Assembly (NCBI GenBank): GCA_036244855.1
Contig: BQKZ01001479.1
Coordinates: forward strand, 15,421-79,420
Direction: 5' to 3'
Length of the DNA: 64,000 bases
From: Temnopleurus reevesii
Lineage: Eukaryota > Echinodermata > Echinoidea > Temnopleuroida > Temnopleuridae
Under the pieces are notes generated by a model. It did no database searches. It was not told where the DNA came from and saw nothing but the letters and a program-made list of their open reading frames with translations. The first letter of the stretch is position 1. Each line of letters starts with the position of its first letter. Of this stretch, positions 3,484 to 62,042 are shown piece by piece. The translations under genes and the position numbers were made by a program.

Positions 3484-6400
3484 ATGCTAGCAGCACAGTT
3501 GGAGCTTGAAGGTACATTTGATGCCATAAAAGAGACAAGATATGAAAAGCATAAAGATGAGGTGAGCTAGTTCAAATTAATTTTTGTTATCAAATGCTTC
3601 CTAATCCTGCTGTAATTTCCCCCCAAAAAGTGTGTATGAGATATTGTACTTGTAGTTTCCTTCAAATTAAGTAAAGGGAAAATTCATTTTACTGTCAATC
3701 TATATCAGCACGCAAAGGGTATGAGAATTAATTAGTTTAATTAATTCTCAAAGTTTTATAAAGATATATTATATTGATCTCAGATTTTTTCACTGCCGTA
3801 GTGTACTGTGAAACTATAATGCTACTGATGTTAAAAAAAGAATTAAAGTTACAGTAAAAATTGCATTGTTCATCCGTGTATAGGGACAACCTTTCTATAA
3901 TGTCAATTATAGACCGGTTTGTTTGTATTGTACATAGATAAATAAATTATAATTCAAACACATGGCGATGATATATGCAATTTTAAGTATATACAAGAAA
4001 TCTCCAAAATGAGTTACACTGCAGTTTATACATTTTTAAATCAGATTCTACAATTTTGTTGGAATTTAAACAGCGCTTTTTAAACCTGATTGACCATCTG
4101 TAAAATGGGATCAAATAGATTACGTATAAAAGATAAATTAAATGGATGATTCTATAAGTATAAGTGAGGGGACCAGTTTGCAACATGTTGGTGTCAATGT
4201 TACGTTGTGAACCTTCACCTTTTTCATTACCCTGTGGACTTGGTGAAGAAACAATTAATGGAATGAGATTGTAAGCTGATATTGCATACTTGATTGAAAG
4301 GTCACATTCATATCTCCACCAAGCCCACAGGCCATGAGAAAGGTCACAAGCTGATCCCCTCATTTATAGAAAGACCCAATTTCTAATTTAATGTCATTTG
4401 TTTTATCTTGATACCCGCTTCTTTTCAGATCAACTGTGTTGCATTCTCCCGTGACCTGGAGATGATGGTGACTGGTTCTGACGATGGCAGGGTGCGAGTT
4501 TGGAACAGACCGAAGAACGTTCTCGTTTGCAGGTTTTTCGGACATGAAGGTAAGATGGATACGTTTTTGTGTCCTCTCTCTCGAGGATCACTATCGTACT
4601 AGAAATCTTCAAAATTGCATTTATCTTCTTTTTTTTCCTTCTTTTTTTTTCCTAGGTAGAAAACGCAATGTCAACTTTTTGTGCACGGTTAAAAAAAAGG
4701 AAAGATAGTGAATATTGACCGTTTCAATCTTGCTTTGATTTTTAGGGAAGTTAAATGATAAATGTTTTTGTTAAAAAGTCAGGGTTTCCATGGTCATTGA
4801 AAATCCTGTCAGGTCAGGTACTTTTTTGAAAATTTATGAAATGTCATAAATTGCCAATCAGACATTTTTAGTGATTTATTCTGATTTCAAAAACTGAAAT
4901 GACACTCAGAATTTTCGTCATGCTAATCTTGTAAATTTTGTGTATTTCCAAAGGTGCCATAAAAGGAATAGCAGTTTCTCCTAATAGAAGTTTTATAGCG
5001 AGTGCATCCTACGACAGAACAGTGATTTTGTGGCGAACAAGGAATTGTGAAAAGTCATAAGTTGCCAATCAAACAGTTTTAGTGATTAATTCTGCTTTTA
5101 AAAAACAGAAAAAGAATCTTGAATAGCACACTGGATTTGCTTTCTGCTAATATTGTTAAATTTGTATATTTCCAAAGGTGCAATAAAGGGAATAGCAGTG
5201 TCTCCTGACAGTAGTATTATAGCGAGTGCATCCTACGACAGAACAATAATTGTATGGCGGACAAGGAATTCAGAAGTCGTTTACAAATTTACAGGTGAGT
5301 TGAGAATGCCATAATAAAATGCCACGGATAAGATATTGTATAAGCTGCAATCTTCACAAATTTCCGCAAATTTCTCGGTCTTAGCCTTGGAAAAAATTTC
5401 CATGCCTCATGATGCTCATTCATATGTGTAGAAATACTGACCAAAATGTGAAAATACAACATGCCAATGTGTCAAACTGGTCTGAAATTGTGAAAATATC
5501 TGTACGCTAAATTGTTGGCTTTTACAGTATCTAAAACCTTTTTAGACTAGGTACGAGAATAAGTAATAAAGTATACCCCGAAGTACTTTATCAATATCAA
5601 TATTAATATTAATTTAAGATCTTAATCTTAATTTTCCCTTGTTGTAGGTCATTCTAGGTGTGTTTAGACGGTTGCGTTATCGAGCATGGAATACGACAAT
5701 CCAAGAACTTGATGTTAATCTTAATCTCCATGATACAAGATTTTGATCTTGATCTTAATCTTTATCTCCATGTTACAGGTCATTCCAGGTGTGTCGAGAC
5801 GGTTGCGTTCTCTAATGACGGCAAGCTGCTTTGCTCGGGGGCATGGGATAACACTGCCATCGTCTGGAATCTCAAGGTACGTACAGACAATGCTTGGAGT
5901 TTCAATCTGAGAGCAGAGATGCCAACTGTTCAGGAATATGCATGAGACAAAATTAGAATGTGAACAACTGGACAGCTAAACAAAAGTGAGAGCAAGCATG
6001 ACAACAATAACCACACTCTCAGCCAATCACTTGTGATGAAAGCATTGAATTCATATGAAAATAAACCTGATGTATATTCCGAATAACCGAACAGCTGTAG
6101 AAAAGTGATAGAAAACATGACAACAATAACCATGCTCTCTGTCATTCACTTGTGCTGAAAGCCTTGAATTCATGTGAAAATGAACCTAATGCACCTAATG
6201 CATATTGTGGAATAGCTGGCATCTCCTCTGAATATAGATATGCCCATGAACTATTTACCTGTTTTTATTTGTGTCTCTTCCAAGTTGTGAGCTTTGTTTG
6301 TTTTAGATCATTCCATTTCCAACAAGGTTCATCTTTGTTTTAATGAATGATGTTTAGAGTTGAAAAAATGTACCTAATTATATACACTAGAAATTTATTA

Positions 6401-9400
6401 TGAAGACACCTAATATAAAAATATTCCGTATATAACAAGGTAGTTTTCTCATTCCCAGATCTTAATTATAATCTTCAATTATATAAGAACATTCTTAGAT
6501 TTCCTAAGGACTGTGACATTGCAGAGATACCAACCGTTACGGAATATTCATGAGTCCAAAAGAATGACACAATATAAATTTAAATGATAGTATAAGGAAG
6601 AAAACACAACTTTTTGAAAAGAACATAGATAGATAGATAGATAGATAGATAAGTCAGCACACTCCAAATTTTATATAAACCTTAACTTTATGTAGTTTCT
6701 TTAGCTGAAGATGAAGTGTGCTCAATTCGAAACATATTCAGTTTAGAAAAATTGTGATTTCTTTGTTATACTATTATTTAAATATACATGACATTTATCT
6801 GCATATAAATGGATGAGAGTATGGTTATAGTTATCTTGATCTCATAAATATTCTGGAATGGTTGGCATCCCATGATATGGTGTATTTAATGATATTTGTG
6901 TAATGGTTCTTGTTCGTTGCCTTCAAACAGACTGGAACAGCCAGGAACATCCTTACTGGACATAAGAACTTAGTGCAGTGCTGTGCCTTTAGCGCCAATG
7001 ATCGTTTACTTGTAAGTACTCATTTCTCATAACTCCAGACTATTGTTAACTCCTTAGCCCTGTCATACATTTTTGCTTTTCTCACATAAACTCTGAGAAA
7101 AAATTCTTTTTGACAATGTTTTTTTTTTTTTTTTTACTCTTGATGATTGTTCAAAAAGGTATTGAGGATGTCCAAATCATGAAAAAGGACCAGGATTTTT
7201 AGGAAGGAAAATGATAGTCTAGAAATGTCCTCCTTGAACAAAGCCAGCTTAGCTTGTTTTCTCAAGGTGCTATTGTCGCAGGTGGTCGTTGGGCAAGTCG
7301 ATGGGCAGATATTCACAAAAGTGATTAAAACAATACTGGTCATATAGCATTCTTCAAAATTGCTAAAATAGTATCATATTTTAGTCAAATGTTATACTAG
7401 CGGGTTTCGAAGTTGGTGGACGATGGCTCGTGGATGGTAGAAGACGGTGTGCACTTGATCTGCACCTCTTTAAATTCACACTCCAGGGGCCTGCAGTATA
7501 AAAGAGGTAAGATAAATTGAAAATTAATCTTACCTGTGCGGTACATGTATTTACGTAGACTTACGATTAATATTTATTTAACTCCATTTTTTATGTTAAA
7601 GTCAGTCTCTCATGATCGACATGACTTCCAGTTGCGTGCCAAACTGTCCGCAGCCATTTTGATTGCGAAGATTGCCGAACAGAAAATCACATAATTATTT
7701 ATCTGGAATACCGATTGAGCAAGCTTTATTTTGCTAGCTCACAGCTCGGGAGTCGCAAACGTATGCATTCCGCACGTTTTTAGAAAAGAAAATTGAAGCC
7801 AAAGAGGAGACGAGTCAAAGTTATACGCAACAACAACAAGGATCGAAAAGTACGAAATGTTCCGAGGTTCTGAGCTTGGCAAGGTGCGTAAGCAAGGAAC
7901 ATCGTTGTTAATGTTGCCAATACGAAAGACGCCGTCCGTGCGCGCTCGCAACCGGAAGTCATGTCGATCATGACGGACTGACTTTAAAGGCTCCATAGGT
8001 GCACTTGTTTTCAACCGTCCAGCTATTTCAAAAACCCAGTATTATTTTTACCTTTGAGCAAACATGATAAATGGCCAGCCTTGTGTTATTTCCTGCAGGC
8101 GACAGGGTCTTGGGATCACACCGTTCGTCTGTGGGCGATGTGTCGTGAGGCGGGTATGGACCAAGTCAGAGGTCCTTAGACCTCTCATCATACCCTATTC
8201 ATGTGTAATATTATTTTTTACCTTTGAGCAGATATGATGAATGACCCGCATTGTTTTATTTCCTCCAGGCAACAGGGTCTTGGGATCATACAGTGCGTCT
8301 GTGGGCGATGTGTCGTGAGGCGGGTATGGACCAAGTCAGAGTCCTGACAGGGCATTCAGGAAACGTACATGCTGTAGCATTCTCTAAGATGGGGATGCTG
8401 GTGAGTGATCCACACTACTTTATTAATTTCAGGGTGTGTCTCTGGAGATTTGTATTACATGTCAAAGAACCTGCTTTCCTGTTTGAAAAGAGTAGGGTAT
8501 TTTCCTGAGAAAGTATTTACCTGAATTTTACAATCTCATTAATGTACATCCTTATCATCAGATTGACACTTCCATCATAATGACACATTGTGTTGGTAGT
8601 GATGTTAAGCTCTAATCAATCAATAAATAAATCTAGAAATTTGTAATTGATTTAAATTTGAAGCAGATCAGCTCTGGCCAATCAGAATGCACATTTCAAT
8701 TTGCAATTAATTGCAACTTTAGAGCCTACCTTCTAATTCACCTTTAGGTCTGTGGAAAAAACATATGCAAGAAAAGGATGACTGATGTCACTAATGATTA
8801 TGTTTTTAATGTTATATGCCCTTGTAGAACATTAGAGTAAAGATCCATTCACAAAATGTTGGCTTTTTTTTAGATGTTTGATGATTCCAGAGCTTACTTA
8901 AAAGACCAAAGAGATAAATTGTTGCAAATACAATGCCAAAGTTTTGTTATGATATATTCAGAATATTTCATCTTTAATATGGAGAGATATAGAAGTTCTC
9001 ATTAATGAAACGTTCATGTAAGACGTTTTTCAAATTTTAAAGTTGAACATTTTTTGCGCTCTTCATAATGAAAACAAATATTGCAATGCTAGCCCCCTTC
9101 AAAATTAATTATTTTGAAGGACATAATCAAAATCAACAATACAGCTGCTCATATTATGAATTTCATTCCTACCATCAAATCACTCCTTTTTTTTTTGACA
9201 GGCAACTGGTTCATGGGATAAGACTGTTCGGTTATGGAGTTCACGTGACGCTCGTCTTCTAGCGGTTCTCTCTGAGCATACGGGATGGGTGCGAGCATTG
9301 GCCTTCTCTACTGATAGTAACATGTTAGCTAGTGCTAGTGATGATGAAACGGTAAGGAGACGCTTTTATCTTTGCCCCTAGACTCTTGATTCCAGATCTT

Positions 9401-11160
9401 GGTTGCTTAGCCGACCTGGTATTGCTTTATTTTATTTGATGCTTGTGTCCTAGCGGTTTTCTCTGAACACACGGGATGGGTGCAAGCATTGGCTTTCTCT
9501 ACAGATAGCAACATGTTAGCCAGTGCTAGTGATGATGAAACGGTAAGGTGAGGCTTTTATCTTTGCCCTTTTAATCACGATTCAATATCTCGGTTGCTTA
9601 GCCGACCTGGTAGGAGGGTACTCCTTTATTTCATGTGATGCTTGCCTCCTAGTGGTTCCCTCAGAGCACACAGGGTGGGTGCAAACATTGGCCTTCTCTA
9701 CAGATAGCAACATGTTAGCCAGTGCTAGTGATGAAGAGACGGTAAGGAAACACTTTAGTCTGTCTGTCCTGAAAGATGTAGATGTATTAAAATCTGTAGT
9801 GATTAATTGTCGCCAGAGGAAATGTTTGATTCCCATTTGTGCTTTTATTTCCTATTGGTTTGACTCTATCATATTTCTTTACCTTTAAATGTCAACTATT
9901 GTATGCAATCCAAATGCAAGTTTAATAATTTTTTTCAAGTTTCATTATTTGAACAACCTGATTTCCCTGACCAATCCTATGGGAAACATTCTTTTTGGAG
10001 CAGTTCATCCCAATTTTTCTGTCAGAAAATTTTGGAGGTCTGCATATTGTTTGGAACCAGTCTCGGTATTTCCTAATGATGGACTGTTTTGCTGTTACAT
10101 GTCTGATACAAAGAACGCCTGTAATATTTTACCATCAAAAGTTGTTTACCTGAACACCTCTTGTATTAATGTACAGGTCAAAGTCTGGGATGTGAGGACT
10201 GGGGAATGTGCCAAGACTCTTGAGGTAAGCATTCGAGTCAAATCTAATTCATCTTGTGTTATAAAATTGTAATCAAATGCACTCTACAATGCACTGACCA
10301 GTCGAGACCCATTGTACATGCTCATATTCTAAAAATAACCCACCCAGATCCTGAGCTTGTCGAAATGCGTGTTTCATTGTACAATTTGTACTTTATCTGT
10401 AATTGGTTGCATTTTCATGTAACAATCCTTTAATCATGTTTTATTAAAAAACAAAAGGTTTGAAAGTACAAACCTTGATGACGTATTAGTGTGTGTGTTT
10501 TTTTCATAAGGATGATTTTTTTTACAAACACTGATGCATCTGTGTTTTATGAAAAGGGGGTAAAATAACTTAAAAGAATATTTTTGGAGGGCTATCCCTG
10601 AAAGTGTATTTTCATTTAAGGTTTCTAACTTAAAATAATAATTGATTCAGAGATTATATTTCTGGCTTCTTTACTCATAGTGTAGTTACGGCAAAATTTA
10701 TTTGTTTAGTTCTTTAACCTTTGTAATTCATTAATAAATGAACATACCAGCTATATTAGATGAAAACAGAAAACATTTTCTTCAAACTCATTTGGGGGAA
10801 ATGCCCAGTGCCGAATTTTGATATTATTGTTATAGTTTTGAAAAACAGTTTTGGTTGACGTATACAAACTTCTAATAACTTTTGACCCAACTTTAAATCA
10901 TTTTACATTATATTGAGAATCTTATTTATCCTATTGTTTCTTTTCAGAGTGATTTGGAGCAGCTTCAGACATGTGTCTTTTCATCAGAGGGGGCGCTGTT
11001 CGCTTCGGGGGCTGCAGCAATGGCTATAGCAGAGAAAGAGGGTAGACCTAAGACTGCACAGATGAATGGTCATGAGGCGGGGAAGGTCGCATTAGGAGAG
11101 GAAGATGAGATGTCATCAATTTCAGATGATGTAGACGATGGTGGAGGCAGCTGCGGCTAG
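3484..11160 (+). CDS. WDR38: WDR38-like seven-bladed WD40 repeat protein (nine coding exons)
   Basis: The coding exons are 3484-3561, 4429-4549, 5178-5294, 5779-5876, 6931-7011, 8269-8400, 9202-9351, 10177-10224 and 10948-11160. They total 1038 bases and 345 residues, and every junction is GT-AG with matching phase. The protein has seven WD repeats at about residues 27-52, 69-93, 112-136, 152-179, 195-221, 239-267 and 280-296. Repeats 4 and 5 carry the motif ATGSWDxTVRLW. The tail after about residue 297 is acidic and glycine-rich. Order and wording of the repeats (VETVAFS, LATGSWD, VKVWD, then a final degenerate blade ending SGAA) match vertebrate WDR38 as I recall it, which is about 314 residues long and a WD40 protein linked to ciliated cells. 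WD40 propellers act as protein-binding platforms, and a specific partner cannot be read from sequence. The start is the first methionine in an exon with acceptor TTCTTGCAG at 3464. Upstream untranslated exons are not identified. Several exons have decayed duplicate copies in the introns, described separately. Confidence 0.85.
4843..5045 (+). pseudogene. Decayed upstream copy of exon 3 of the WD40 gene
   Basis: This block repeats the end of intron 2 and the first three quarters of exon 3 about 211-224 bases upstream of the real exon. The shared intron segment (GTCATAAATTGCCAATCA here, GTCATAAGTTGCCAATC at 5054) and the acceptor TTTCCAAAG are kept. The exon copy reads GAIKGIAVSPNRS and continues through DRTVILW, but runs into a TAA at about 5057-5059 because the duplication junction cuts it off. 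It lacks the donor of the true exon, so it is unlikely to be used. Confidence 0.8.
5590..5715 (+). pseudogene. Decayed upstream copy of exon 4 of the WD40 gene
   Basis: The sequence from about 5648, AGGTCATTCTAGGTGTGTTT, is a mutated version of the true exon 4 start at 5779 (GTCATTCCAGGTGTGTCGAG). It continues GACGGTTGCGTT as in the real exon, then decays within about 60 bases. The copy has an in-frame TAG in place of the arginine codon. Preceding AATCTTAATCTT-type intron sequence is also duplicated. It looks like a short tandem duplication about 130 bases upstream of the functional exon. Confidence 0.75.
5985..6190 (+). repeat. Tandem duplication (about 118 bp) in intron 4
   Basis: Two adjacent copies share CATGACAACAATAACCA and ATTGAATTCAT-type segments followed by GTGAAAATGAACCT or its variant. 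The first copy is centred near 6030 and the second near 6150, an offset of about 118 bases. Divergence is roughly 10-15 percent by eye. It is intronic and has no coding role. Confidence 0.75.
6624..6651 (+). repeat. (GATA)n microsatellite
   Basis: A short pure GATA tetranucleotide run of about seven units, inside intron 4 of the WD40 gene. Confidence 0.9.
7398..8040. mobile_element. Foldback element in intron 5
   Basis: A nested inverted repeat. The inner arms are 7598-7636 (AAAGTCAGTCTCTCATGATC...) and about 7947-7985, which reads in reverse complement AAAGTCAGTCCGTCATGATC. The outer arms start near 7401 with CGGGTTTCGAAGTTGGTGGA, and end near 8038 with the reverse complement of CTGGGTTTTTGAAATAGCTG. 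The roughly 640-bp unit carries no recognisable protein. It resembles a foldback or long MITE. Its right end directly abuts the start of the duplicated exon 6 block. Confidence 0.65.
8041..8175 (+). pseudogene. Decayed upstream copy of exon 6 of the WD40 gene
   Basis: This is a head-to-tail copy of the end of intron 5 plus the first half of exon 6, about 170 bases upstream of the real exon. It keeps the acceptor CTGCAG at 8098 and reads ATGSWDHTVRLWAMCREAG in frame. After GMDQVR the sequence diverges to GP and a TAG stop, at the duplication junction. It has no donor. If spliced in it would truncate the protein after the fourth WD repeat. Confidence 0.85.
9420..9550 (+). pseudogene. First extra copy of the 3-prime part of exon 7
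   Basis: The segment from about 9441 to 9542 repeats the second half of exon 7 (GWVQALAFSTDSNMLASAS in the copy, GWVRALAFSTDS in the original), including the donor ACG-GTAAGG. The 5-prime half of the exon is missing, and an AG falls at 9451-9452 (TCCTAG). Use of that AG after exon 7 would shift the reading frame, so I do not treat it as an alternative exon. The downstream intron sequence (CTTTTATCTTTGCCC) is also copied. Confidence 0.8.
9600..9750 (+). pseudogene. Second extra copy of the 3-prime part of exon 7
   Basis: A third tandem unit about 198 bases after the previous one. It reads SEHTGWVQTLAFSTDSNML and keeps the GTAAGG donor at 9742. Like the first copy it lacks the start of the exon. 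The three units share the intron words GGTTGCTTAGCCGACCTGGT. Together they form a 195-200 bp array in which only the first unit is a complete exon. Confidence 0.8.
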
Positions 11161-24297: not shown

Positions 24298-24426
24298 GGC
24301 CCCGGTGACATAGGACACCGGAAGCAACAAGATTCAACACGACTCTTTCTTAATTCACAGTTAACTACCTCAGAACAAAGAGTCGGGGTGAATCGTGTTG
24401 CTTCCGGGGTCCTATGTGAACGGGGC
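24298..24426. mobile_element. Palindromic MITE, family A, intact
   Basis: The ends are GGCCCCGGTGACATAGGA and, in reverse complement, GCCCCGTTCACATAGGAC. Inside them are GAAGCAACAAGATTCAAC and its inverted partner TTGAATCG/GGTGAATCGTGTTGCTTC. Both flanks are TAA (24295-24297, 24427-24429), a three-base target duplication. The whole unit can fold into one hairpin. Confidence 0.85.
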
Positions 24427-24865
24427 TAAAGAAAGGAACTCTATCTTGAAGACATTGTCACACGTTTAGATTTTGTTATTTTAAAAATGTCAAAGCAAGC
24501 CGTCTGACCTATGTTATCACATTCAGATTGATGAAAACAAAACAACCAAAATGTAAAAAGGAGGAAATCATACATGTACTATAAGGATATCTATGAAGAA
24601 TTAAAAAACTGTTCACTGGCATTTTATTACTGCACAGGGTGTCTATGTAGGGGATACTTTTAACAATCCTTTTTAATGCTCTAAACGTTGATTTTGAAGC
24701 GTAATATACAGCATAAACTGTTCTGGTAGCATTCAGAATCTGACAGTTGAGAATATTTTTAAACAAAAACAATTTCTTTAAGTGGAATGCACCTTTAAAA
24801 TCCCCCTTACACCTAAACATGCTAAATGCAAATTAAGGTAAACGAAGGCTAATGAATTTGGAAGA

Positions 24866-25805: not shown

Positions 25806-26414
25806 CTATAGTTCTCCCACTTTGGATCCACGGTCCGCCTCGATTTTCGCTCGTAAAATAGCATCATCTAAAGATTTATCCTTCTTCATACGACCTGTAA
25901 AGGAATGCATTAAAAAAGGAAAATCTATGAAAAGTAGAACGAAATCTGATCGGAACGTTTTAAATTAGAAAATAAGTGATGAATTTTTTTTATAGGCACG
26001 TGCTATAATTGACACATAGTCATTAAAACGAAAGTTAGAAAAAAATTATTTCAAAACATTTTTATAATAATAACCAGAATACGAACATATATTCAAATAC
26101 ATTTGAAATGAAATTTCGTGGACTCATGAAAAACTGAAGAAAAAAAAATCTTAATACCAATTAGCCCAACCAAGCTTTTTGCCGAGTGAGAAACAAAAAG
26201 AAGGAGAATTATTATGGATGGATGATGGTGGAAGTGTGTGATTGCATGGGTGTGTAGTGGTGTGCTTACGCGATCGCATGCGTTTGTGACGGTGTGGGTG
26301 TGTGATGGTGTGGGTGTGAGGTAGTGTGATATGAGTGTGTGATGACATGGGTGTGTGATGGTATGTGTGTGTAGGCAGGTAGGAGTGGGAGAAAGAAAGC
26401 GAGCAGTATGGAAG

Positions 26415-26495
<81 letters not shown>

Positions 26496-28412
26496 GACAT
26501 ATGAAGAGGAGCACAGATATGTAATGATATATGTGATATCATCCATCAAACCATTATGGGGTGTTGTTCAAAATCAACTGCAAATCAACTGCAACTTTGC
26601 AAATTGTAACGCACATTTTCATTCGCGCACGGTATGCGCATTTAACAAGACGCGCATGAATTAATGGTTTTACTTGGCCTGTTCCGATCAACTGCATCTT
26701 GCAATCAATGGCAACTTTTGAGCAACACCCCCTTAGAGGCTGGATGACTTACCATTGCGATCTGGTACTGATCTCCGTCGTCGGGCGAATTCAGCATCTG
26801 TTAAAATATATCGATACAAACTTATTAATATAGGACAAAAATAATGTCACCTGAATGTGAAGTTTGCAAGAAATAATTTGTTACAACTTCTATGTTCCAT
26901 TAAAAAGGAAATAGATTTATGTTCCGACCCCATATTAAGGCAATTAAATTAAGATCCGGTCAAAACCGGATTCTGATAAATGCAATATTGTAGGAAATTT
27001 AATTATCTGTAATTTGAGACCAAAATCATAAACATTTAGTGACTCTCGATTATCTAAAGTCGTATAATTTTTAGTGGAACCTGACCGTTTAAATATTCAT
27101 TTCTGAATTCTACATCCAAAACTGGGAAAAGTAGGCTACATTAAAAATGTGATATTNATACAAACTTATAAATATAGGACAAAAAGAATGTCACCCGAAT
27201 GTGAAGCTTGCAATCAGTAATTTGTTACAACTTCTATGTTCCATTAAAAAGAAAATAGATTTATGTTCCGACCCCATATTAAGGCAATTAAATTAAGATC
27301 CGGTCAAAACCGGATTCTGAAAAATGCAATATTGTAAGAAATTTAATTATCTGTAATTTGAAACCAAAATAATAAAAATTTAGTAACTCTAGATTATCTA
27401 AAGTCATATAATTTTTAGTGGAACCTGACCGTTTAACGTGTTTAAGATAATATTCATTTCTGAATTCTACATCCAAAAATGGGAAAAGTAGGCTACATTA
27501 AAAATGTGATATTCGGGTCCTCGTAGAAACCTCTCACAGACTAGACTGGTGGTTGTTCACCCGTTCCTTCCAATATTGGTAAAAGTAATTCTAAACTTAG
27601 ACATTTTAACTTATATTGTATTCAAATTAACGTACATATCGTCATTGGCCTATAATAACAAACAACTTTCTTATTATGCGTTCTCCTTACTTGTTAAGAA
27701 TTTTTGTTTTCCAGGTTATATTCCAATACTTTGTATTTTGTATTTTGAATTTATCTCTAGACGCTAATACCATACCACATCCTCCACCACATTCACTACC
27801 ACCACCACCGTCTCAACTAGTGCAGCTCTCATCCCCACTACTCATACCACACCTCCATTATCGACTTCCACCATCATCATCCACACAGCCACTTTCCTCA
27901 TCACCAGCGCAACCATCATCATCAATAACAATATACTACCACCTTCTCCTCCACAACTATTACCACTATCACTACCTCAAGTATGATAGCACAACTACCG
28001 TCACCACTATTAAAACCACACTTCCATTATCAACCGCCACCACCATCATCACCCCTCCACCACTCTCATCCCCACCACCACTACCATGACAACTACCACC
28101 ATCACCATCATCATCATTATCATTGCTATCTCATACATCACCATCATCATCATCATCATCATCATTGATCATTGATGATCATGATCATCGTGATTATCAT
28201 CCTCGTGACCATCATCACCATCACCACCATCATCATCACTAACAACTGCACAAACATCATTGTCGTCATCATCATGATCATCATCATCCCCACCACCACC
28301 GCTACCACCATCACCAACATCATGATCCTGCTCATGATGATGATGATGATGATGATCATAAACATCATCATCACCCCCATCACCATTACCACCATCACCA
28401 ACGTCATAACTG

Positions 28413-28452
<40 letters not shown>

Positions 28453-28580
28453 TATCATCATCACCACCACCATCATCATCATTTCTATCTCCATCCACGA
28501 ATTTCATATTCACCTGTTCCTTCCAAGAACGCGGCCGCCAAAACCATCGAAATGACAAGAACCACTAACAGCCTCCGCAT
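25806..28580 (-). CDS. Secreted peptide precursor of unknown family (three exons, 66 residues)
   Basis: The minus-strand coding exons are 28514-28580, 26753-26797 and 25806-25894, with introns GT-AG and all in phase 1 (67+45+89 = 201 bases). Exon 1 encodes a classic signal peptide (MRRLLVVLVISMVLAAAF). Exon 2 carries RRRR at residues 28-31, and exon 3 ends KVGEL at a TAG. A Gly-Arg at 38-39 and Lys-Lys at 41-42 are further prohormone-type sites, so a short amidated peptide (residues 32-37, SVPDRN) or a 24-residue C-terminal peptide (43-66, predicted helical by eye) could be released. There is no cysteine, so the mature product would be linear. The 5-prime acceptor TTTTTCTCCTCAG at about 28623 suggests an untranslated first exon further upstream. 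Intron 1 contains a (CAT)n array and a duplicated block with one n, intron 2 a (GT)n run. I do not recognise the family. A neuropeptide-like or antimicrobial precursor is inference. Confidence 0.72.
26417..26490 (+). repeat. (GT)n microsatellite
   Basis: A pure TG dinucleotide run of about 37 units, preceded by diverged GTGTGTGATGG-type sequence from 26222. It lies in intron 2 of the secreted peptide gene. Open frames through it encode only His-Thr or Cys-Val repeats. Confidence 0.97.
26558..26731. mobile_element. MITE-like element
   Basis: The left end GGGGTGTTGTTCAAAATCAA is mirrored by the right end GCAACTTTTGAGCAACACCC. Both flanks show TTA (CATTATGG and CCCTTAG). It lies in intron 2 next to exon 2 of the secreted peptide gene. 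Confidence 0.6.
26812..27513 (+). repeat. Direct duplication of about 345 bp split by a single n
   Basis: 26812-27156 and 27158-27513 are about 95 percent identical by eye, sharing GATTTATGTTCCGACCCCAT, AGATCCGGTCAAAACCGGAT and AAAAGTAGGCTACATTAAAA. The single n at 27157 sits exactly at the junction. It is intronic in the secreted peptide gene. Unmerged alleles are more likely than a real tandem duplication. Confidence 0.85.
27770..28492 (+). repeat. CCA-rich and (CAT)n low-complexity region
   Basis: A CCACCACC-type stretch (27770-28090) passes into (CAT)n with inverted TGATGATG patches around 28160-28360. It lies in intron 1 of the secreted peptide gene, ending only about 20 bases from exon 1. 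Long open frames here are simple repeats, not genes. Confidence 0.9.
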
Positions 28581-28765
28581 GTTGTTATATGTGTATGTAT
28601 TATGAAAGACAATATCCAGCACCTGAGGAGAAAAATAAATATATAATGAGATCACAAATAAATAAGAAATATAACGTGAGCGAGAAAAGAATTGCTCTCT
28701 CAAAAGTAAGGTTCACATTTGGAGCGGAAACATTAAGGTTTTAGAAACTACGACAGTCCTACGGA

Positions 28766-42669: not shown

Positions 42670-44070
42670 AGTTCTGCACATGGGCAACAACAGAGCATCT
42701 CCCAAATTTGCGGCTTTCTCAGAAAACGTCTTAAACATTTCCCTTGCGTTTTTAGGCCAATTTCCGCCCGTATGGGCAGGGTATCAATGTCACCACTTAA
42801 TGACGTGTATGATAAAATTGATGGTGATATCTACACCGGTCTCCATCAGCGTGTAATAAAACACGGGTTCTGTAACTACGTGTCTCGAAAGATTAAAAAT
42901 AAAACAGATTTTTAACCGAAAATGACGGTTAAATGGGAGAGCTGTATTTATGGGAGTTTTAAGTCTAATGGAGGGTGAGATGAATTACGAAACTTTGGAT
43001 TTTTTTCTTCATGACCTGTACACCTTTCACTCTCTTTTTTCCATTGGTAGTTGCTTCATCCGCCTGGATTTTAAATGGTCGCCTAATCATTTTGACGAGG
43101 CTTCCATTAGGACGTTCGTGAAACCAATCTTCCCAACATCATGAGTCTTTTTTAGAATGATGGGGCTAGGGGGAGGTAAAGGATTTTGACGACCCCTATC
43201 CCGACTATCCCACAAGAAAAAACAGCAACGAAGCCTCCCCCTCCCCCTTCTCAAAAGAAAAGATGAAAGTAGATCTTATAGAAATTTTGCACCCCCTAAC
43301 GGAGATTTGCACCTCTTTCAACTTCAATTAGGCTCATTTTCCCTGGGGGTAGAGCTGGAGCTATCAGAGCCCCTCCTTACAATCTGAATACCCCTAAAGT
43401 CCCTACATATACCCACAGTCAGCTGAAAGTTTCAAAATTAAGTCTTATCGACTTGAATTTAAAAGAAGAGTCTACCCAAAAATGATTCTTTAACAGAAGC
43501 AGAAAAAATTGGTTAGTAAAACAAAAATCGAACAAGAAATTAAAAAAAAGTTATGAATTTTTTAAGATTTGAAAAAATGGGCAAATCAGTGAATATTTCC
43601 AAAGATGTCGCCAATTTGATGACATCATGGGTGCACAACTAACCATAGCTCTCGTTATAAATATGTTGGAAATTTCATTATTCTTACAGAAAGTTGCAAA
43701 GTTTGTATTAATGTAAACATGCAAATAGTGGATCTACATATTTATCATAAAGATATCATAAGGGTTAAAGTTTTGAGGAAATCATATTTTAGGGGAAAAA
43801 GTAACATTTTATGACATTGATATGAATGTAATGAATTGTCAGTTGTGCACCTATGACGTCATCAGTTGCCAATTTGTCTAAATGTATAAACATTCATAAC
43901 TTTCTTATTAGTTGTCCAATTTTTCGCGAACTTTTTTGGTTCTGTTAATCTAATTTTTCTGCTCCTGTTTAAGAAATATTATTTTTAGGTAGACTGTTCT
44001 TTTAAGATTTTGTAATGTTAAGTGTGTGGTGTGCCTATACTGCAACATCAGAAAAGCACCAGCGATGAGC
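42670..44070. other. Intergenic, nothing supported
   Basis: No gene or clear element. A phrase near 43830-43930 (GTCAGTTGTGCACCTATGACG, then TCATCAGTTGCCAATTTG) resembles sequence at 33100-33190 and at about 45950-46020, suggesting an old dispersed repeat. Confidence 0.4.
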
Positions 44071-44076
44071 AACTCA

Positions 44077-44193
44077 GGCCCCGGTCACATAGAGGCCCGG
44101 AAGCAGCACGATTCAGCACGACTCTTTGTAAATTCAAAGTTAACTGCATCAGAACAAAGAGTCGTGTTGAATCGTGTTGTTTCCGGGACTCTA
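44077..44193. mobile_element. Palindromic MITE, family A
   Basis: Left GGCCCCGGTCACATAGAGGC, arms GAAGCAGCACGATTCAGCAC and AGTCGTGTTGAATCGTGTTG, and a loop around AAAGTTAACTGCATCAG. The right end is truncated after TTCCGGGACTCTAAT. Confidence 0.8.
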
Positions 44194-44375
44194 ATCTTAA
44201 TACAATATATACTTGGATTTCACTCCACATTAGTTGTTGCTATGTCGAACAAGCCTCGAGCAAGCTTTTGGGTTGTCAAAAACGACATTGTGTTAGGGGC
44301 ATGCATAACGTTTTCCTAAATCAGTGAAGATCTCGTGATGCTAACACTTTAACAGAATAAAAAAATTGGCTTTTA

Positions 44376-48184: not shown

Positions 48185-48366
48185 CCTTGGATTTCTTTTA
48201 TTGAAGAAAGGTGTATCGAGAGCGTGACTGTATGGTCTACTGCTAAAGCTGAATAAGTGAGAATGACGGAAACACGATCCATTTTATGCGATTTTTCGCC
48301 CAAATTCTTCGTACTGGCATGATCTGATGATAGGGGTTCAGGCATGAGTGAATTTTCACCAAACAT
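48185..48366 (-). CDS. Possible first exon of an unrecognised gene
   Basis: A minus-strand open frame starts with Met at 48366 (a second Met at 48282 begins MDRVSVILTYSALAVDHTVT) and runs into a textbook donor, CCAAG-GTAAGAAT, at 48184. It has no signal peptide or known domain, and no downstream exon of matching phase 1 was convincing. It may be chance. Confidence 0.2.
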
Positions 48367-49440
48367 TCGAAAGAAGCCACAAATCTGCAGAGGTAGATTT
48401 GTATGTTTTCTGTTGTTCGGAATCCAACGACAACACGTATGAATACATCTTACTGTATATTGATTTCATTACTGTCATGTAATTCAAATAATTGGAAGTA
48501 ATATTGTTTCATTTATGTTATGATTTCTAGCGTGGAAAAATTAATACAATATTGACCTGACGTCACAATGGAGTAACTGAAGTAGTTTCCCTACGGAAAT
48601 AAATATGTAGATGTATAAATATATTTAAACAAACTTATCTAATAAATGAATATATGAACATATGAATTGATCAATGAGTGTTAAATTTGAATCGCTTGGT
48701 TGATTGATTAATGATACATAGTTGATGTGCAGATTAAAAGATATGAAACTTTCAATTACATTTATGGAGGCTTAATTGAACGAAGATTAGATGCAAAAAT
48801 TTCATATTTGATTATTTGAAAACTATCCTACATTCTAAGGCAACAATATGTTTTCAGTCAGTCTTGGAAAAAAATTCCGGGTTTTCCGCAACTTAAACGA
48901 ATTTTTCGACAAACAAACTGACTTTGGAAGCAGTAAATTTACATTTTCTTAATGTGATTTTCTCGGAAATATAAAATAAAAATCAGTGGATGTATAAGTA
49001 ATAAATGAGATTCAAAATCTCTCAAAATCAAGGAAAATCATGAGTCAAATCCTTTTCCTGCATATTTTTTTTTACATACTGACAATCATGCACAATAGGA
49101 AAAATGTACAATTCAGCACCTCTTTAGGGTGCAAACTAGTGCAAAACAAAAACTTGGAGCACTTTTTACATGATGGTGTAATCTTGCATCTTTTTATGAA
49201 GTTTTGAGTGTCATCACTTAATGCGTTTCAAACGTTTACGTATTAATGAATGTATGTTTGATGACTTAGTTATCGAGCTTCAACCTGGGTAAGAATCCCA
49301 AAGAAGCCGCGCTGTGGTGTAAATATGGCGCCCTAAAGAAACTGGTACAATGGGAAGGGGGGGGGTAGCCCTTCTAGCCACACATCCCATTTCTGTGGTT
49401 CTTGAATACGCCGCCGGTTTACTATTAGATTCATGTTTAA

Positions 49441-49745
49441 TCACTGGTCACATAGGGCTCCGGAAGCAACACGATTCAACACGACTCTTAGTTCTGAGGC
49501 AGTTAACTTTGAATTAGCAAAGAGTCGTGTTGAATCGTGATGCTTCCGGGGCCCTATGCAACCGGGGCTGTAATCACTGGTCACATAGAACACCTGAAGC
49601 AACACGATTCAACACGACTCTTTGTTCTGAGGCAGTTAACTGTGAATTAGCAAAGAGTCGTGTTGAATCGTGTTGCTTCCGGGGCTTTAATCACTGGTCA
49701 CATAGAACACCGGAAGCAACACGATTCAACACGACTCCTTGTAAT
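49441..49745. mobile_element. Tandem array of family A palindromic MITEs (left copy)
   Basis: Three units lie head to tail (49441-49570, 49574-49687, 49691-49745), each starting TCACTGGTCACATAG and separated by TAA. The first two are full hairpins with arms GGAAGCAACACGATTCAACA and TGTTGAATCGTGTTGCTTCC. The third is truncated after its left arm. Confidence 0.85.
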
Positions 49746-52118: not shown

Positions 52119-52260
52119 CAAAGAAGCCGCGCTGTGGTGTAAATATGGCGCCCTAAAGAAACTGGTACAATGGGAAGGGGGGGGGTAGCCCTTCTAGCCA
52201 CACATCCCATTTCCGTGGTTCTTGAATACGCCGCCGGTTTACTATTAGATTCATGTTTAA

Positions 52261-52520
52261 TCACTGGTCACATAGGGCCCCGGAAGCAACATGATTCAAC
52301 ACGACTCTTTGTTCTGAGGCAGTTAACTGTGAATTAGCAAAGAGTCGTGTTGAATCGTGTTGCTTCCGGGGCTCTATGTGACCGGGGCATTAATCACTGG
52401 TCACATAGGGCACCGGAAGCAACAGGATTCAACACGACTCTTTGTTCTGAGGCAGTTAACTGGGAATTAGCAAAGAGTCGTGTTGAATCGTGTTGCTTCC
52501 GGGGCTCTATGTGACTGGGG
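52261..52520. mobile_element. Tandem array of family A palindromic MITEs (right copy)
   Basis: Two complete units (52261-52390 and 52394-52520), both with ends TCACTGGTCACATAGGG and GTGAC(C/T)GGGG and a loop TTCTGAGGCAGTTAACTG. The TAA spacer is present between them. Same position as the array at 49441 in the duplicated block, but better preserved. Confidence 0.85.
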
Positions 52521-52739
52521 TATTATCTGCGTTTCTTGACAAAGAACATTGTAATGTGCGATTCCTTACACCGGTTAGTATTAGGAATCCGGTTTGCATA
52601 CATCGCTTGGCGTTGTTGCTATGTATAAGGTCATCCCCAGGATAGCTTTTGAGCAGTCAACAACAAAATTTGTGTACAGACAACGCTTAATATTTACATC
52701 TATTTGTAAATTCTCCTGTTCAATATTTATCGATTTGTA

Positions 52740-52790: not shown

Positions 52791-53504
52791 TCACGCTGAG
52801 CTGTGGCCCATTTCTAAATACATGGAGAAATCGAGCAGACCAAATGCACGAGAGAGGGCAGTGCTTCTTTTACTGAGTATTTCCACATTGGTCAATGTGT
52901 GAAATTTATTCAAGGTGGGCCTATTCATATTCTCATTTCCGAAAAATTAAGTCTAACGCCAATTCAATGCTCCTTTGTAATGCTATTCAAATCGGAACGG
53001 NCTTTGCGTCATGGTGTCTCAATGTACTCTCCCATGACTCATCGATGTGTGTTTCATACAGCAAACAGTACGTCACGAGAGGACACACTTTGGTCGAAGC
53101 ACCGTTATCTCTCCCTTATCCCTGTTCACACTGGAATAATAAACTCAAGCCGATATATATCATTTGTCAAGTATTAAAGATTTGGGGTTAAAATTTTGCT
53201 TTGATAGTGCAGCTGAATACGTTCGGTTTTCCCAATTCTTCATTTATTATACGACATGACTGCGATTGTTGTATAACACTAAGCAGGCGAAAATCCTGGG
53301 GGCGGGGACCCCTGTTTAAATGAAAAGAAAAATTATCAGAAGAAAAGGGGAGGAAAAAAGTGAAGACCTTTTCTTTTTGCTTATCAAGAAATGTTTTAAA
53401 AAAACCACCCCCACCTCCTCGGTCACGTACAATCATGGAGACGCACCAATCAAGACAGCAAACTTTAGCATTACTTGAATTTTTATAGATCACTAGTGGG
53501 AGTG

Positions 53505-53765
53505 GAAAATGGATAAGAGAATAAAACGAAAAAAGAAAGGAGGAAAACAGAAGAATGAAAGCAACAACGAAAGGAGGAAAAGATAATAGGAGATAAGAAG
53601 AAAAAAGGAATAAAAAGAGAAAAAGAACAAGAAAAGAAATGATAGGAGAAAAGATGAGTATGAAAAAGGAAAAAAAATGATCTAAGACGAAGAAGAGGAA
53701 GAGCAGCAAGAAAACGAAAAAGAAAAAAGAAGGAAAAGAAAAGGAAGAAAAAGAAGAAGAAGAAA
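53505..53765 (+). repeat. Polypurine (GAAAA-rich) tract
   Basis: A long A/G-rich stretch with AAGAAAAAG variants. An identical copy lies at 55510-55770. Confidence 0.85.
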
Positions 53766-54493
53766 GTGCAAATAAAATCTCAGACCTTCACAACCTCTCC
53801 GTCTTTGAAGTTGTTGTTGTTGTTTTTATTTTCCATATAAAAATAACAAATTAAGTACAAACACAAAATCAATATACAAAATCAAATGAGAAAGAAAATA
53901 ATCATAATACATATTGATGAACAAATAATAGTAATTGGCTGGAAACTCTACTCAGAGCTTTGGTGTTCCTAGATGTCCAGATTGATTGATTCGAGATAAA
54001 GTATTAAGTAAACATAACTAATATAAACATTAAAACTAAAAAACAAGAAAAAGAGTTAACAATAGGAGATATATTATATTGATGATAATCTTATTTGTTT
54101 CAATGTATCTTTTTACAATATGTAATTAATATCAATGTCATGTATTATGTATATTATTTTGTAGTTTATTATGTATTTATGTTTTTAATTTATATACATT
54201 CCAATGCTCTTGCTCTTCTATGTTCATGTTTTTAATCTCAGGACCATGATGCAAAACAGTTTTTAACTGATCTTGTTATCCTGAATAAATAAGATTGAAT
54301 GAATAAATAAATAAATTGAATGAAATTAATTTTAACAAACAAAAATTAGTAGTTCGATTAGTAATTCAAAGTAATAGGATAAGATGTTATAATCTTTCAA
54401 GTGTGAAAGGGGACCTAGACCAACATCGTATCGAGGAATGCCCTAGTAAACAAACTTGTTTGCACTCGATATTTATTCTTTTAGTGATACCAN

Positions 54494-54660
54494 AACTAGA
54501 CGGTTTTTCGTTACCCATGAAAGAATATTTTCCACTCCTTTGGTTAGCTTTCTCTCTACTTCTGCAACGGTTCTTCCGTTAACCGTTAGAGTGGTGTCAT
54601 CGGCATACATGTCAACAATGCCATCTTCAATACATTTTGGTAAGATGACAGGGGTTGGGG
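54494..54660 (-). mobile_element. Reverse transcriptase fragment of a non-LTR retrotransposon
   Basis: The minus-strand translation reads CIEDGIVDMYADDTTLTVNG followed by TVAEVERKLTKGVENILSWV and TKNRL. YADD is the catalytic motif of the RT palm, and the surrounding words fit CR1/Jockey-group LINEs. The expected upstream PQGSVLGPLLF block is absent, and the fragment is cut at the n at 54493. A dead fragment. Confidence 0.8.
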
Positions 54661-54843
54661 AAGAAATGATGTCTACATTTTTATTAATTATGTAATAATT
54701 TGTGTATTGATTTTTTACCGGTATTATGATTAGACAGACCACCTGTGCGCTTTGAAACACCCGTGTAAAGCGCCTTATAAATGTAATAATTAATATTATT
54801 ATCATTATTACATTTAGAACAATGGTTGCTTTGGCGCTAATAG

Positions 54844-54900
54844 TGGGGGAGGGGGGGGGGGGGGGGGGGGGGGGCCCCCCCCCCCCCCCCCCCCCCCCCC
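54844..54900. repeat. Poly-G directly followed by poly-C
   Basis: About 30 G (one A interruption) are followed immediately by about 26 C. This is either an unusual perfect hairpin or, more likely, a misjoin of two contig ends that both stop in the same homopolymer. Confidence 0.85.
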
Positions 54901-56639
54901 GATATCCACGTACGTGCAGATGATGTACCCTGTGTGCAACGTCCTCAGTTTGTGACGCCGTGACGTAATTAACTGCATGACCTAGTTCCCAATGATTTTC
55001 GCACATCTTTGCGTCATGGTGTCTCAATGTACTCTCCCATGACTCATCGATGTGTGTTTCATACAGCAAACAGTACGTCACGAGAGGACACACTTTGGTC
55101 GAAGCACCGTTATCTCTCCCTTATCCCTGTTCACACTGGAATAATAAACTCAAGCCGATATATATCATTTGTCAAGTATTAAAGATTTGGGGTTAAAATT
55201 TTGCTTTGATAGTGCAGCTGAATACGTTCGGTTTTCCCAATTCTTCATTTATTATACGACATGACTGCGATTGTTGTATAACACTAAGCAGGCGAAAATC
55301 CTGGGGGCGGGGACCCCTGTTTAAATGAAAAGAAAAATTATCAGAAGAAAAGGGGAGGAAAAAAGTGAAGACCTTTTCTTTTTGCTTATCAAGAAATGTT
55401 TTAAAAAAACCACCCCCACCTCCTCGGTCACGTACAATCATGGAGACGCACCAATCAAGACAGCAAACTTTAGCATTACTTGAATTTTTATAGATCACTA
55501 GTGGGAGTGGAAAATGGATAAGAGAATAAAACGAAAAAAGAAAGGAGGAAAACAGAAGAATGAAAGCAACAACGAAAGGAGGAAAAGATAATAGGAGATA
55601 AGAAGAAAAAAGGAATAAAAAGAGAAAAAGAACAAGAAAAGAAATGATAGGAGAAAAGATGAGTATGAAAAAGGAAAAAAAATGATCTAAGACGAAGAAG
55701 AGGAAGAGCAGCAAGAAAACGAAAAAGAAAAAAGAAGGAAAAGAAAAGGAAGAAAAAGAAGAAGAAGAAAGTGCAAATAAAATCTCAGACCTTCACAACC
55801 TCTCCGTCTTTGAAGTTGTTGTTGTTGTTTTTATTTTCCATATAAAAATAACAAATTAAGTACAAACACAAAATCAATATACAAAATCAAATGAGAAAGA
55901 AAATAATCATAATACATATTGATGAACAAATAATAGTAATTGGCTGGAAACTCTACTCAGAGCTTTGGTGTTCCTAGATGTCCAGATTGATTGATTCGAG
56001 ATAAAGTATTAAGTAAACATAACTAATATAAACATTAAAACTAAAAAACAAGAAAAAGAGTTAACAATAGGAGATATATTATATTGATGATAATCTTATT
56101 TGTTTCAATGTATCTTTTTACAATATGTAATTAATATCAATGTCATGTATTATGTATATTATTTTGTAGTTTATTATGTATTTATGTTTTTAATTTATAT
56201 ACATTCCAATGCTCTTGCTCTTCTATGTTCATGTTTTTAATCTCAGGACCATGATGCAAAACAGTTTTTAACTGATCTTGTTATCCTGAATAAATAAGAT
56301 TGAATGAATAAATAAATAAATTGAATGAAATTAATTTTAACAAACAAAAATTAGTAGTTCGATTAGTAATTCAAAGTAATAGGATAAGATGTTATAATCT
56401 TTCAAGTGTGAAAGGGGACCTAGACCAACATCGTATCGAGGAATGCCCTAGTAAACAAACTTGTTTGCACTCGATATTTATTCTTTTAGTGATACCTGGC
56501 CCTCTATAACATGTTCGAACAAACACTGTCATCCAGCTTTTATAGACCAACTGAAACCTTATCGAGATCGGCAAATCTTGTTGCTTTATTCCATATTTTT
56601 TTAGATAACGCAAGCACTTTATGTGGATTTATGAAAAAA

Positions 56640-60418: not shown

Positions 60419-61600
60419 NTTTATTTAAATATATTTATACAGGTACAAAAGATCAGCAATCTGCTGTTTTACATCAATGTCCTGATAATACAATAAAATG
60501 ACACAGATAGTAAGAACAATATTAACAAGTAAAATGCAAAATACATATAAAATATAGAAAGAAGATATTCTAATAATTCATAATTATCTATACTGGTAAT
60601 TCAAATATCTTACAAGAAAAACAGAATGATTAAAGAAGAAAGTTAAAATATACTTCTATTTATTAAACTGATAAAAATGTAGATTAAATAAAGATTCAAG
60701 TATTAGTGAAAAATCATTTGATTAAAGGCAATATTAAATAACAGAGAGAGAGAGAGAGAAAAAAACACGTTGATATTAACATAACATGGTTGGAATTATC
60801 GTATGGAAAACTGACGAAAATACATTAACATGAAACTAAAAAGTGATATAATGGAATTAACAAGATAAACAAACGGAGAAATTAAAAAGAAAATCGGAAA
60901 CATTAAAACAATACTCGAGAGAAAATTATCATACCTTATTGTGTGCATCGTAATAATTATGTACATGTATATAAGAGAGTTATGTAAAAATGAAAGGCTT
61001 ATAAACAGTAAATACTTTCACAAAGAAAATTTCAAATCATGGGAACTGTGAGTTTTTGTATAGCGTCTTAAAAGAATTAATAGAAATGGCGTTTTGTAAC
61101 GCATCCGGTAACTGATTCCAGATTTGTGGTCCGGAATATATAAATGATTTTTGAAACATTCCAGATTAGGTCTAGGTGGAACAACATTCAGTGTATCATG
61201 ATTACGTGTTTTTACATCGTGCCTATCACAAACCATTTCAATATTGTAACATAAGCGAGATGGGGCCGATCCGTGAATACATTTATACATTAAATTTGCT
61301 AGAAAATAATTTCGTCTTTGTTCTACGGATGTCCACTTAAGGTCTTTAATAATCTGGTCACCATGACAATTAGTGAAATCGAAATTGCCAGTGACATATC
61401 TAGCAGCTCGTTTTTGAAGCCTAGTAAGTTTTAAGAGAGCTTGTTTACTTATTTTATTTCCCCAAACTGAAATTGCATAGTCCAAGCAGGGTTGTATATT
61501 AGATTTGTACATTAATGTTAATAATGATTCATGTATAAANTGGAGTTCAAAATCCCTAAGCTCACATTTTGAATAGTATAGGTTGTTTGTCAATTTTGCT
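60419..61600 (-). mobile_element. CR1-like LINE, C-terminal part of ORF2 and 3-prime region
   Basis: The minus-strand open frame from 61593 encodes the C-terminal domain of a CR1/L2-group reverse transcriptase: LTLMYKSNIQPCLDYAISVW, then LLKLTRLQKRAARYVTG and LANLMYKCIHGSAPSRL. A single frameshift near 61160 moves the ending (SGPQIWNQLPDALQNAISIN, SFKTLYKNSQFP, stop at 61037) to another frame. A further 600 bases down to about 60420 would be the 3-prime untranslated region. Single n characters at 60419 and 61540 mark contig edges. Truncated at the 5-prime end and broken, hence inactive. Confidence 0.85.
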
Positions 61601-62042
61601 TGAATATTGACGATCAGTATTTCCTATAAATGAAATTAAATGAAATATATTTAAAACAAAACGAAGCTTATTGAAATGATCTTGCGTCTTAATGAAATTG
61701 GTTGTGACAATTACATTTTATCATGCATTTAAGTAGAATCACGATGTTAGTTCACGAATTTAAATTTTCATAAATATTTGAAGATGCATGTAGATGAAAA
61801 TGGTTGAAGGAATTTCACATGTTGATGACCGATAGCGTCGGGGAAACGATACCACTCGAAATTGGCTGAACATAAATATTTGTCAGTGAACAGAGTGTGA
61901 AATTGGCCGGGAAAACCTATATTTCTATTGATGTCACAGTTTCATGGTTTAGTATCACAAACACTTATTTTAGCACAACCAGGCATATCAACAGGCTATA
62001 GATTTTGTTCTATACTCATGAGATGATTTTTAATTTCTTCAG

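Follow-up and report, generated by a model that had tools for sequence, protein, structure and literature searches.

A minus-strand locus of the sea urchin Temnopleurus reevesii carries three short exons that join in one open frame, and the 66-residue translation (MRRLLVVLVISMVLAAAFLEGTDAEFARRRRSVPDRNGRMKKDKSLDDAILRAKIEADRGSKVGEL) reads as the candidate precursor of a small secreted peptide. Both the sequence and above-chance statistics support a coding, secreted small precursor. A spliced chain as good as this one is uncommon by chance, and its codon content resembles that of kinase exons from the same genome. The best explanation is a single-copy gene, possibly lineage-restricted, for a small secreted peptide that would be cut after an RRRR motif, a reading to which we give slightly less than even weight. 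Peptide genes so small, with coding exons of 45-89 bases, are those most easily missed by annotation.

Gene model and locus

The window, by which we mean the whole 64,000-nt stretch analysed, lies within a 107.8-kb contig of a 558-Mb assembly in 10,433 contigs. The coding sequence is made up of 67 + 45 + 89 nt, and the locus is laid out as follows.

28581..28622, minus strand: putative 5' UTR part of exon 1, following the strong acceptor CTCCTCAG/GTG (8.1 bits)
28514..28580, minus strand: coding part of exon 1 (67 nt), MRRLLVVLVISMVLAAAFLEGT, predicted signal peptide, from translation, splice scores and hydrophobic core
26798..28513, minus strand: intron 1, 1716 nt, phase 1, containing a CAT/ATG microsatellite and, at 27157, a contig join
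26753..26797, minus strand: exon 2 (45 nt), DAEFARRRRSVPDRN, codons split at both ends, RRRR site, from translation and splice scores
25895..26752, minus strand: intron 2, 858 nt, phase 1, from splice scores
25806..25894, minus strand: exon 3 (89 nt including TAG), GRMKKDKSLDDAILRAKIEADRGSKVGEL followed by the stop TAG, predicted C-terminal helix, from translation, splice and codon scores and a structure model
26814..27513, no strand assigned: two near-copies of ~350 bp, 91.6% identical, abutting the single N at 27157 on both sides

Re-reading the minus strand returned the exons, splice coordinates, phase 1-1 joins and 66-residue product that an earlier sequence-only reading had proposed. The motifs it had listed (RRRR at 28-31, GR at 38-39, KK at 41-42 and zero cysteines) are all present in the joined translation, and its sequence observation as a whole is confirmed. 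It had also called the GT-AG sites good, which holds for three of the four sites in the coding sequence. Scored with consensus matrices, not trained on the T. reevesii genome, and ranked against 6552 GTs and 6395 AGs, donor 1 (CAG/GTGAAT, 4.9 bits) falls in the top 0.6% and donor 2 (ATG/GTAAGT, 5.8 bits) in the top 0.4% of the GTs, and the acceptor of intron 2 (5.0 bits) in the top 0.8% of the AGs. Intron 1 has a weak acceptor (0.6 bits, equalled or beaten by 11.5% of the AGs), and we count this against the gene; four exons of the neighbouring WDR38-like gene scored 4.4-9.0. The AG preceding the putative 5' UTR at 28622, 42 nt before the ATG, ranks in the top 0.06%, and such a strong acceptor at this position suggests that an intron interrupts the 5' UTR. 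Exons 1 and 2 have a GC content of 52-53% and exon 3 of 43%, with 35 and 39% in the introns; GC at first codon positions (GC1) of the coding sequence is 0.60.

The near-copies on either side of the N at 27157 are probably the overlapping, probably allelic, ends of two contigs that were joined unmerged, and a true tandem duplication is a possible alternative. Because they flank the N, the real intron 1 may be ~350 bases shorter. In that case exon 1 and exon 2 would derive from different contigs, which counts against the gene model; the overlap itself supports their adjacency. Near-copies lie on both sides of five of the eight single Ns in the window (20587, 27157, 35372, 51770 and 54493), which suggests that contigs were joined at all five without merging overlaps that are probably allelic; solely at 27157 do they touch the N on both sides. 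At 54493 (53002-56496) the similarity extends over 1490 bases at 100%, and at the other four the longest or best pieces are 89-92% identical, with some further pieces at only 68-87%. Flanking near-copies were absent at the single Ns 53001, 60419 and 61540 and at two longer N runs.

The neighbouring gene is WDR38-like, with WD40 exons on the plus strand at 4429-11160. A rough WD40 query matched 168 proteins at E <= 0.001; the best among the 120 listed, at 40% identity, was a WDR38-like protein from Acanthaster planci, and the same best 120 of 168 include a Strongylocentrotus purpuratus fragment of 127 residues, also named WDR38-like, with 45% across 64% of the query. The 124-residue frame P0050 is 91% identical over one WD40 exon and then runs into non-matching sequence, as expected of a near relative's DNA. 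Within the WDR38-like gene, exon-like sequence occurs in the units of two local tandem duplications (8040-8345 and 9240-9756). Elsewhere in the window, a 133-base unit with inverted ends, which looks like a short mobile element, is tandem in two places and was seen by eye in others (49438-49685, 52257-52525, ~24320-24440 and 43993-44327). Two minus-strand open frames (61018-61623 and 54473-55120) appear by eye to be pieces of a non-LTR retrotransposon reverse transcriptase; neither has a match in Pfam. A DNA search of phages with a repeat of the window returned nothing.

Coding content and chance expectation

The codon model was trained on 14,136 nt in 24 kinase stretches of the same genome; 137 kinase matches were found and 30 loci fetched, of which six were dropped, five because the match contained stops and one as the neighbour of another. 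The candidate has a codon log-odds score of +11.4 bits. Random open composites scored -19.3 +/- 10.0, none of 5000 reaching the candidate, and only one of 236 chance chains drawn from 400 shuffled windows (mean -9.4, sd 8.6) was as high. Kinase windows of 66 codons scored 17.6 +/- 12.0 bits, with 34% of 62 at or below the candidate. A score confined to synonymous choice was -4.65 bits, a value reached by 10.9% of the composites, and is counted against the gene; synonymous choice thus gives no clear support, and the coding signal lies in amino-acid content.

Five third exons were compared on codon content; the proposed exon 3 came first with 6.7 bits, and those at 26133, 25924, 25517 and 25456 were ruled out on these grounds. 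In a blind scan of the window for internal exons, a microsatellite stretch ranked first, the four WDR38-like exons came next and exon 2 was sixth. It obtained this rank in another frame, MLNSPDDGDQYQIAM, where its codon score is higher than in the proposed frame, a further point against the gene. The MLNSPDDGDQYQIAM frame was rejected, as it cannot be read past the third codon of exon 3, which is a stop.

To gauge the spliced chain as a whole, we searched for three-exon chains that encode 50-120 residues and consist of an ATG exon bearing a hydrophobic leader, one short internal exon and a terminal exon; thresholds were chosen after the candidate had been seen, and dinucleotide-shuffled windows served as the null. 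With thresholds slightly under the candidate's own, the single qualifying ATG in the real window is that of the candidate. With minimum scores of 4.8 bits for donors and 0.6 bits for acceptors, a signal-peptide three-exon chain occurred in 6 of 1000 shuffled windows, and one with at least two basic pairs in 1 of 1000. Even a first exon that combines a hydrophobic core of 3.0 or more with an upstream acceptor of 5.0 bits or more was absent from all 1000. The candidate's combined splice and codon score (27.6) was reached in 3 of 1500 shuffled windows. Strict-threshold chains were also absent from 126,001 bases at 32 other loci of the same genome, namely the two flanks of the contig and the 30 kinase loci (two overlapping), which span only 3.2-3.9 kb each and so restrict the chains they can contain.

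How rare such chains are varies with the threshold. Lowering the donor minimum to 4.5 bits yields a chain with at least two basic pairs in 2 of 40 shuffles, against 1 of 1000 at 4.8, and we count the looser result against the gene. Under relaxed thresholds some chain appeared in 166 of 400 shuffled windows, and the same 126,001 bases gave two, scoring 14.6 and 13.6. The relaxed scan of the real window produced one further chain at 48282 (score 9.7) and chains from 14 ATGs in the intron 1 microsatellite, 10 of which outscore the candidate. The microsatellite chains also count against it; low-complexity DNA evidently fools the combined score and is a harder null than the shuffles. Scaled to 558 Mb, the shuffle rates (1/1000, 3/1500 and 2/40) correspond to ~10 to several hundred chains of such quality by chance, depending on the threshold.

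Searches for relatives were negative throughout. The 66-mer query gave one word-sharing candidate in the protein collection, with nothing scoring at E <= 10, and a string of exon 1 plus exon 3 gave no candidate; this search requires exact shared 5-residue words, in a collection whose coverage of echinoid transcriptomes is not established. The 66-mer matched no Pfam family at E up to 10 (filters remove most matches above 0.1). The 35-residue segment after RRRR had no match in the PDB, and the leader had three weak matches to designed proteins (E 0.79-8.2). Among the best candidates scored in the 558-Mb genome, only the candidate's own three exons matched, with no second copy, and five of its peptide strings did not occur in the literature searched. 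The absence of relatives is weak evidence, since such searches readily overlook a peptide that is short, split between exons and possibly fast-evolving. A possible paralogue, QIEADEGWRIGKL at 25027-24989, resembles KIEADRGSKVGEL, with E = 0.66 in the window alone, and was set aside as chance or repeat; it adjoins a repeat-like block that is similar, by eye, to one at 28.8 kb.

Predicted precursor and rival readings

In a crude test the leader has the features of a signal peptide: a 12-residue core with a mean Kyte-Doolittle value of 3.28, two N-terminal Arg and small residues at the possible cut. The basic sites resemble those of neuropeptide and peptide-hormone precursors, with R-X-X-R ending at 31 and 39 and KK at 41-42. 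RRRR31 and RNGR39 each match the minimal furin motif, R-X-X-R, which makes the proposed cuts possible. In the mechanism that we infer, the leader would direct the chain into the secretory pathway and be removed after Ala17 or Ala24, leaving a very short spacer before RRRR (10 or 3 residues, respectively). A furin/proconvertase-type enzyme would then cut after Arg31, freeing a 35-residue, weakly basic, cysteine-free peptide (SVPDR...VGEL) that may act extracellularly, most probably by binding a cell-surface receptor as its ligand. Extra cuts after Arg39 or Lys42, together with amidation of SVPDRN, are possible and less likely; for the cut after Arg39 the fit of RNGR to R-X-X-R is the sole support.

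The 35-residue product contains 9 K/R and 7 D/E (net charge ~ +2). Run in single-sequence mode on the contiguous exon 3 stretch, AlphaFold places a helix at precursor residues 44-62 (mean pLDDT 75.1, pTM 0.32). The helical moment of the product is ordinary, being reached by 2170 of 5000 shuffled versions, and the idea of an antimicrobial amphipathic helix was dropped on this count. The sequence-only reading had offered a peptide hormone or a host-defence peptide, with possible amidation of residues 32-37. Its coding and secretory parts find support in the sequence and the statistics, and the hormone identity is without homology support. The near-balanced charge, ordinary amphipathicity and lack of cysteines make the host-defence or antimicrobial option less likely, and nothing beyond the motif speaks for amidation.

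Three other readings were weighed. The exons may have been drawn from noncoding DNA, with at least one of the joins never made and the peptide nonexistent. The wide freedom that very short exons leave, the weak acceptor of intron 1, the two protein searches without a homologue, the microsatellite chains that match the candidate's score and the number of such chains expected genome-wide all favour this reading; the shuffle and codon tests for the candidate's own window, the lack of strict chains in the 126,001 bases elsewhere and the strong acceptor ahead of the ATG argue against it, and we consider it unlikely. It is rather unlikely that the signal-peptide exon is real and belongs to another transcript, where exon 1, perhaps with exon 2, joins other exons and exon 3 is wrong or one alternative end. 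Exon 2 can indeed be joined in frame to five further third acceptors (donors at least 4.8, acceptors at least 0.6 bits), one of which, at 26133, beats that of exon 3 (5.8 vs 5.0 bits). Exon 2 is, however, common to all 15 relaxed chains from the candidate ATG, and exon 3 has the top codon score in the comparison above, which covers the four alternatives named there and leaves 25286 and the relaxed ones outside.

The product may also be a small secreted or signal-anchored membrane microprotein that stays uncut, with RRRR serving as a positive-charge cluster beside the hydrophobic segment. Basic residues do follow that segment, and repeated peptides, a convincing amidation site and cysteines are all lacking; against this, ~16 hydrophobic residues make a short stretch for spanning a membrane, small residues and a furin-type motif come after them, and we judge this reading quite unlikely. 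Set beside these alternatives, the secreted-precursor reading, allowing for wrong ends, is plausible and about evenly balanced between right and wrong. Should the gene be expressed, the signalling repertoire of echinoderms would gain a candidate orphan ligand, and experiments a defined peptide to work with; if it is not, the locus would be an example of how easily short-exon chains are over-read.

Comparison with known systems

Ligands of class B receptors such as parathyroid hormone (PTH) and CRH have a short pro-part, a basic site, an N-terminal segment and a C-terminal helix, and mature PTH begins with Ser-Val. The candidate resembles PTH and CRH in layout, and PTH also in the Ser-Val of its predicted mature N-terminus. 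No family profile or solved member of the class B ligands (PTH, CRF, glucagon/secretin) was matched, either by the 66-mer in Pfam or by the 35-mer in the PDB. A new echinoid peptide hormone, in the form of a 35-mer with an extended N-terminus and a C-terminal helix that is freed by furin-type cleavage, acts like a class B receptor ligand and has diverged past recognition or arisen anew in sea urchins, seems very improbable.

The sea urchin antimicrobial peptides centrocin and strongylocin, in the portion of the report drawn on here, begin with a 20-22-residue signal peptide, which precedes a pro-part and the small peptide itself; EeStrongylocin 2 is rich in cysteines, and the EeCentrocins consist of two chains, with a pI of 10.04 (PMC4805251). 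The candidate shares the order of signal peptide, pro-part and small peptide with the molecules described there and differs from them in its zero cysteines over 66 residues and the ~ +2 net charge of its 35-mer. As it lacks the cysteine-rich mature peptide, it is not a strongylocin.

Orphan neuropeptide precursors of echinoderms offer a further comparison. The part of one report consulted counts 38 neuropeptide precursor genes in S. purpuratus (PMC6209648). In the available part of another, nine starfish Arnp orphan precursors of 83-157 residues have a signal peptide and basic cleavage sites, and some are without apparent relatives in other phyla; seven of the nine have 2-9 cysteines in the candidate peptide, and Arnp11, Arnp15a and Arnp15b combine an acidic spacer with a single C-terminal candidate peptide (PMC4772807). 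The candidate differs from the Arnp precursors described there in its length (66 vs 83-157 residues), its lack of cysteines and of any sequence match, and in being known here from DNA alone. As far as these excerpts go, it is like the Spnp/Arnp series in being a small precursor in which basic cleavage sites follow a signal peptide, and like Arnp11, Arnp15a and Arnp15b in its acidic spacer and one C-terminal candidate peptide. If real, the candidate would plausibly belong to a familiar kind, that of small secreted-peptide genes, while being an orphan in sequence.
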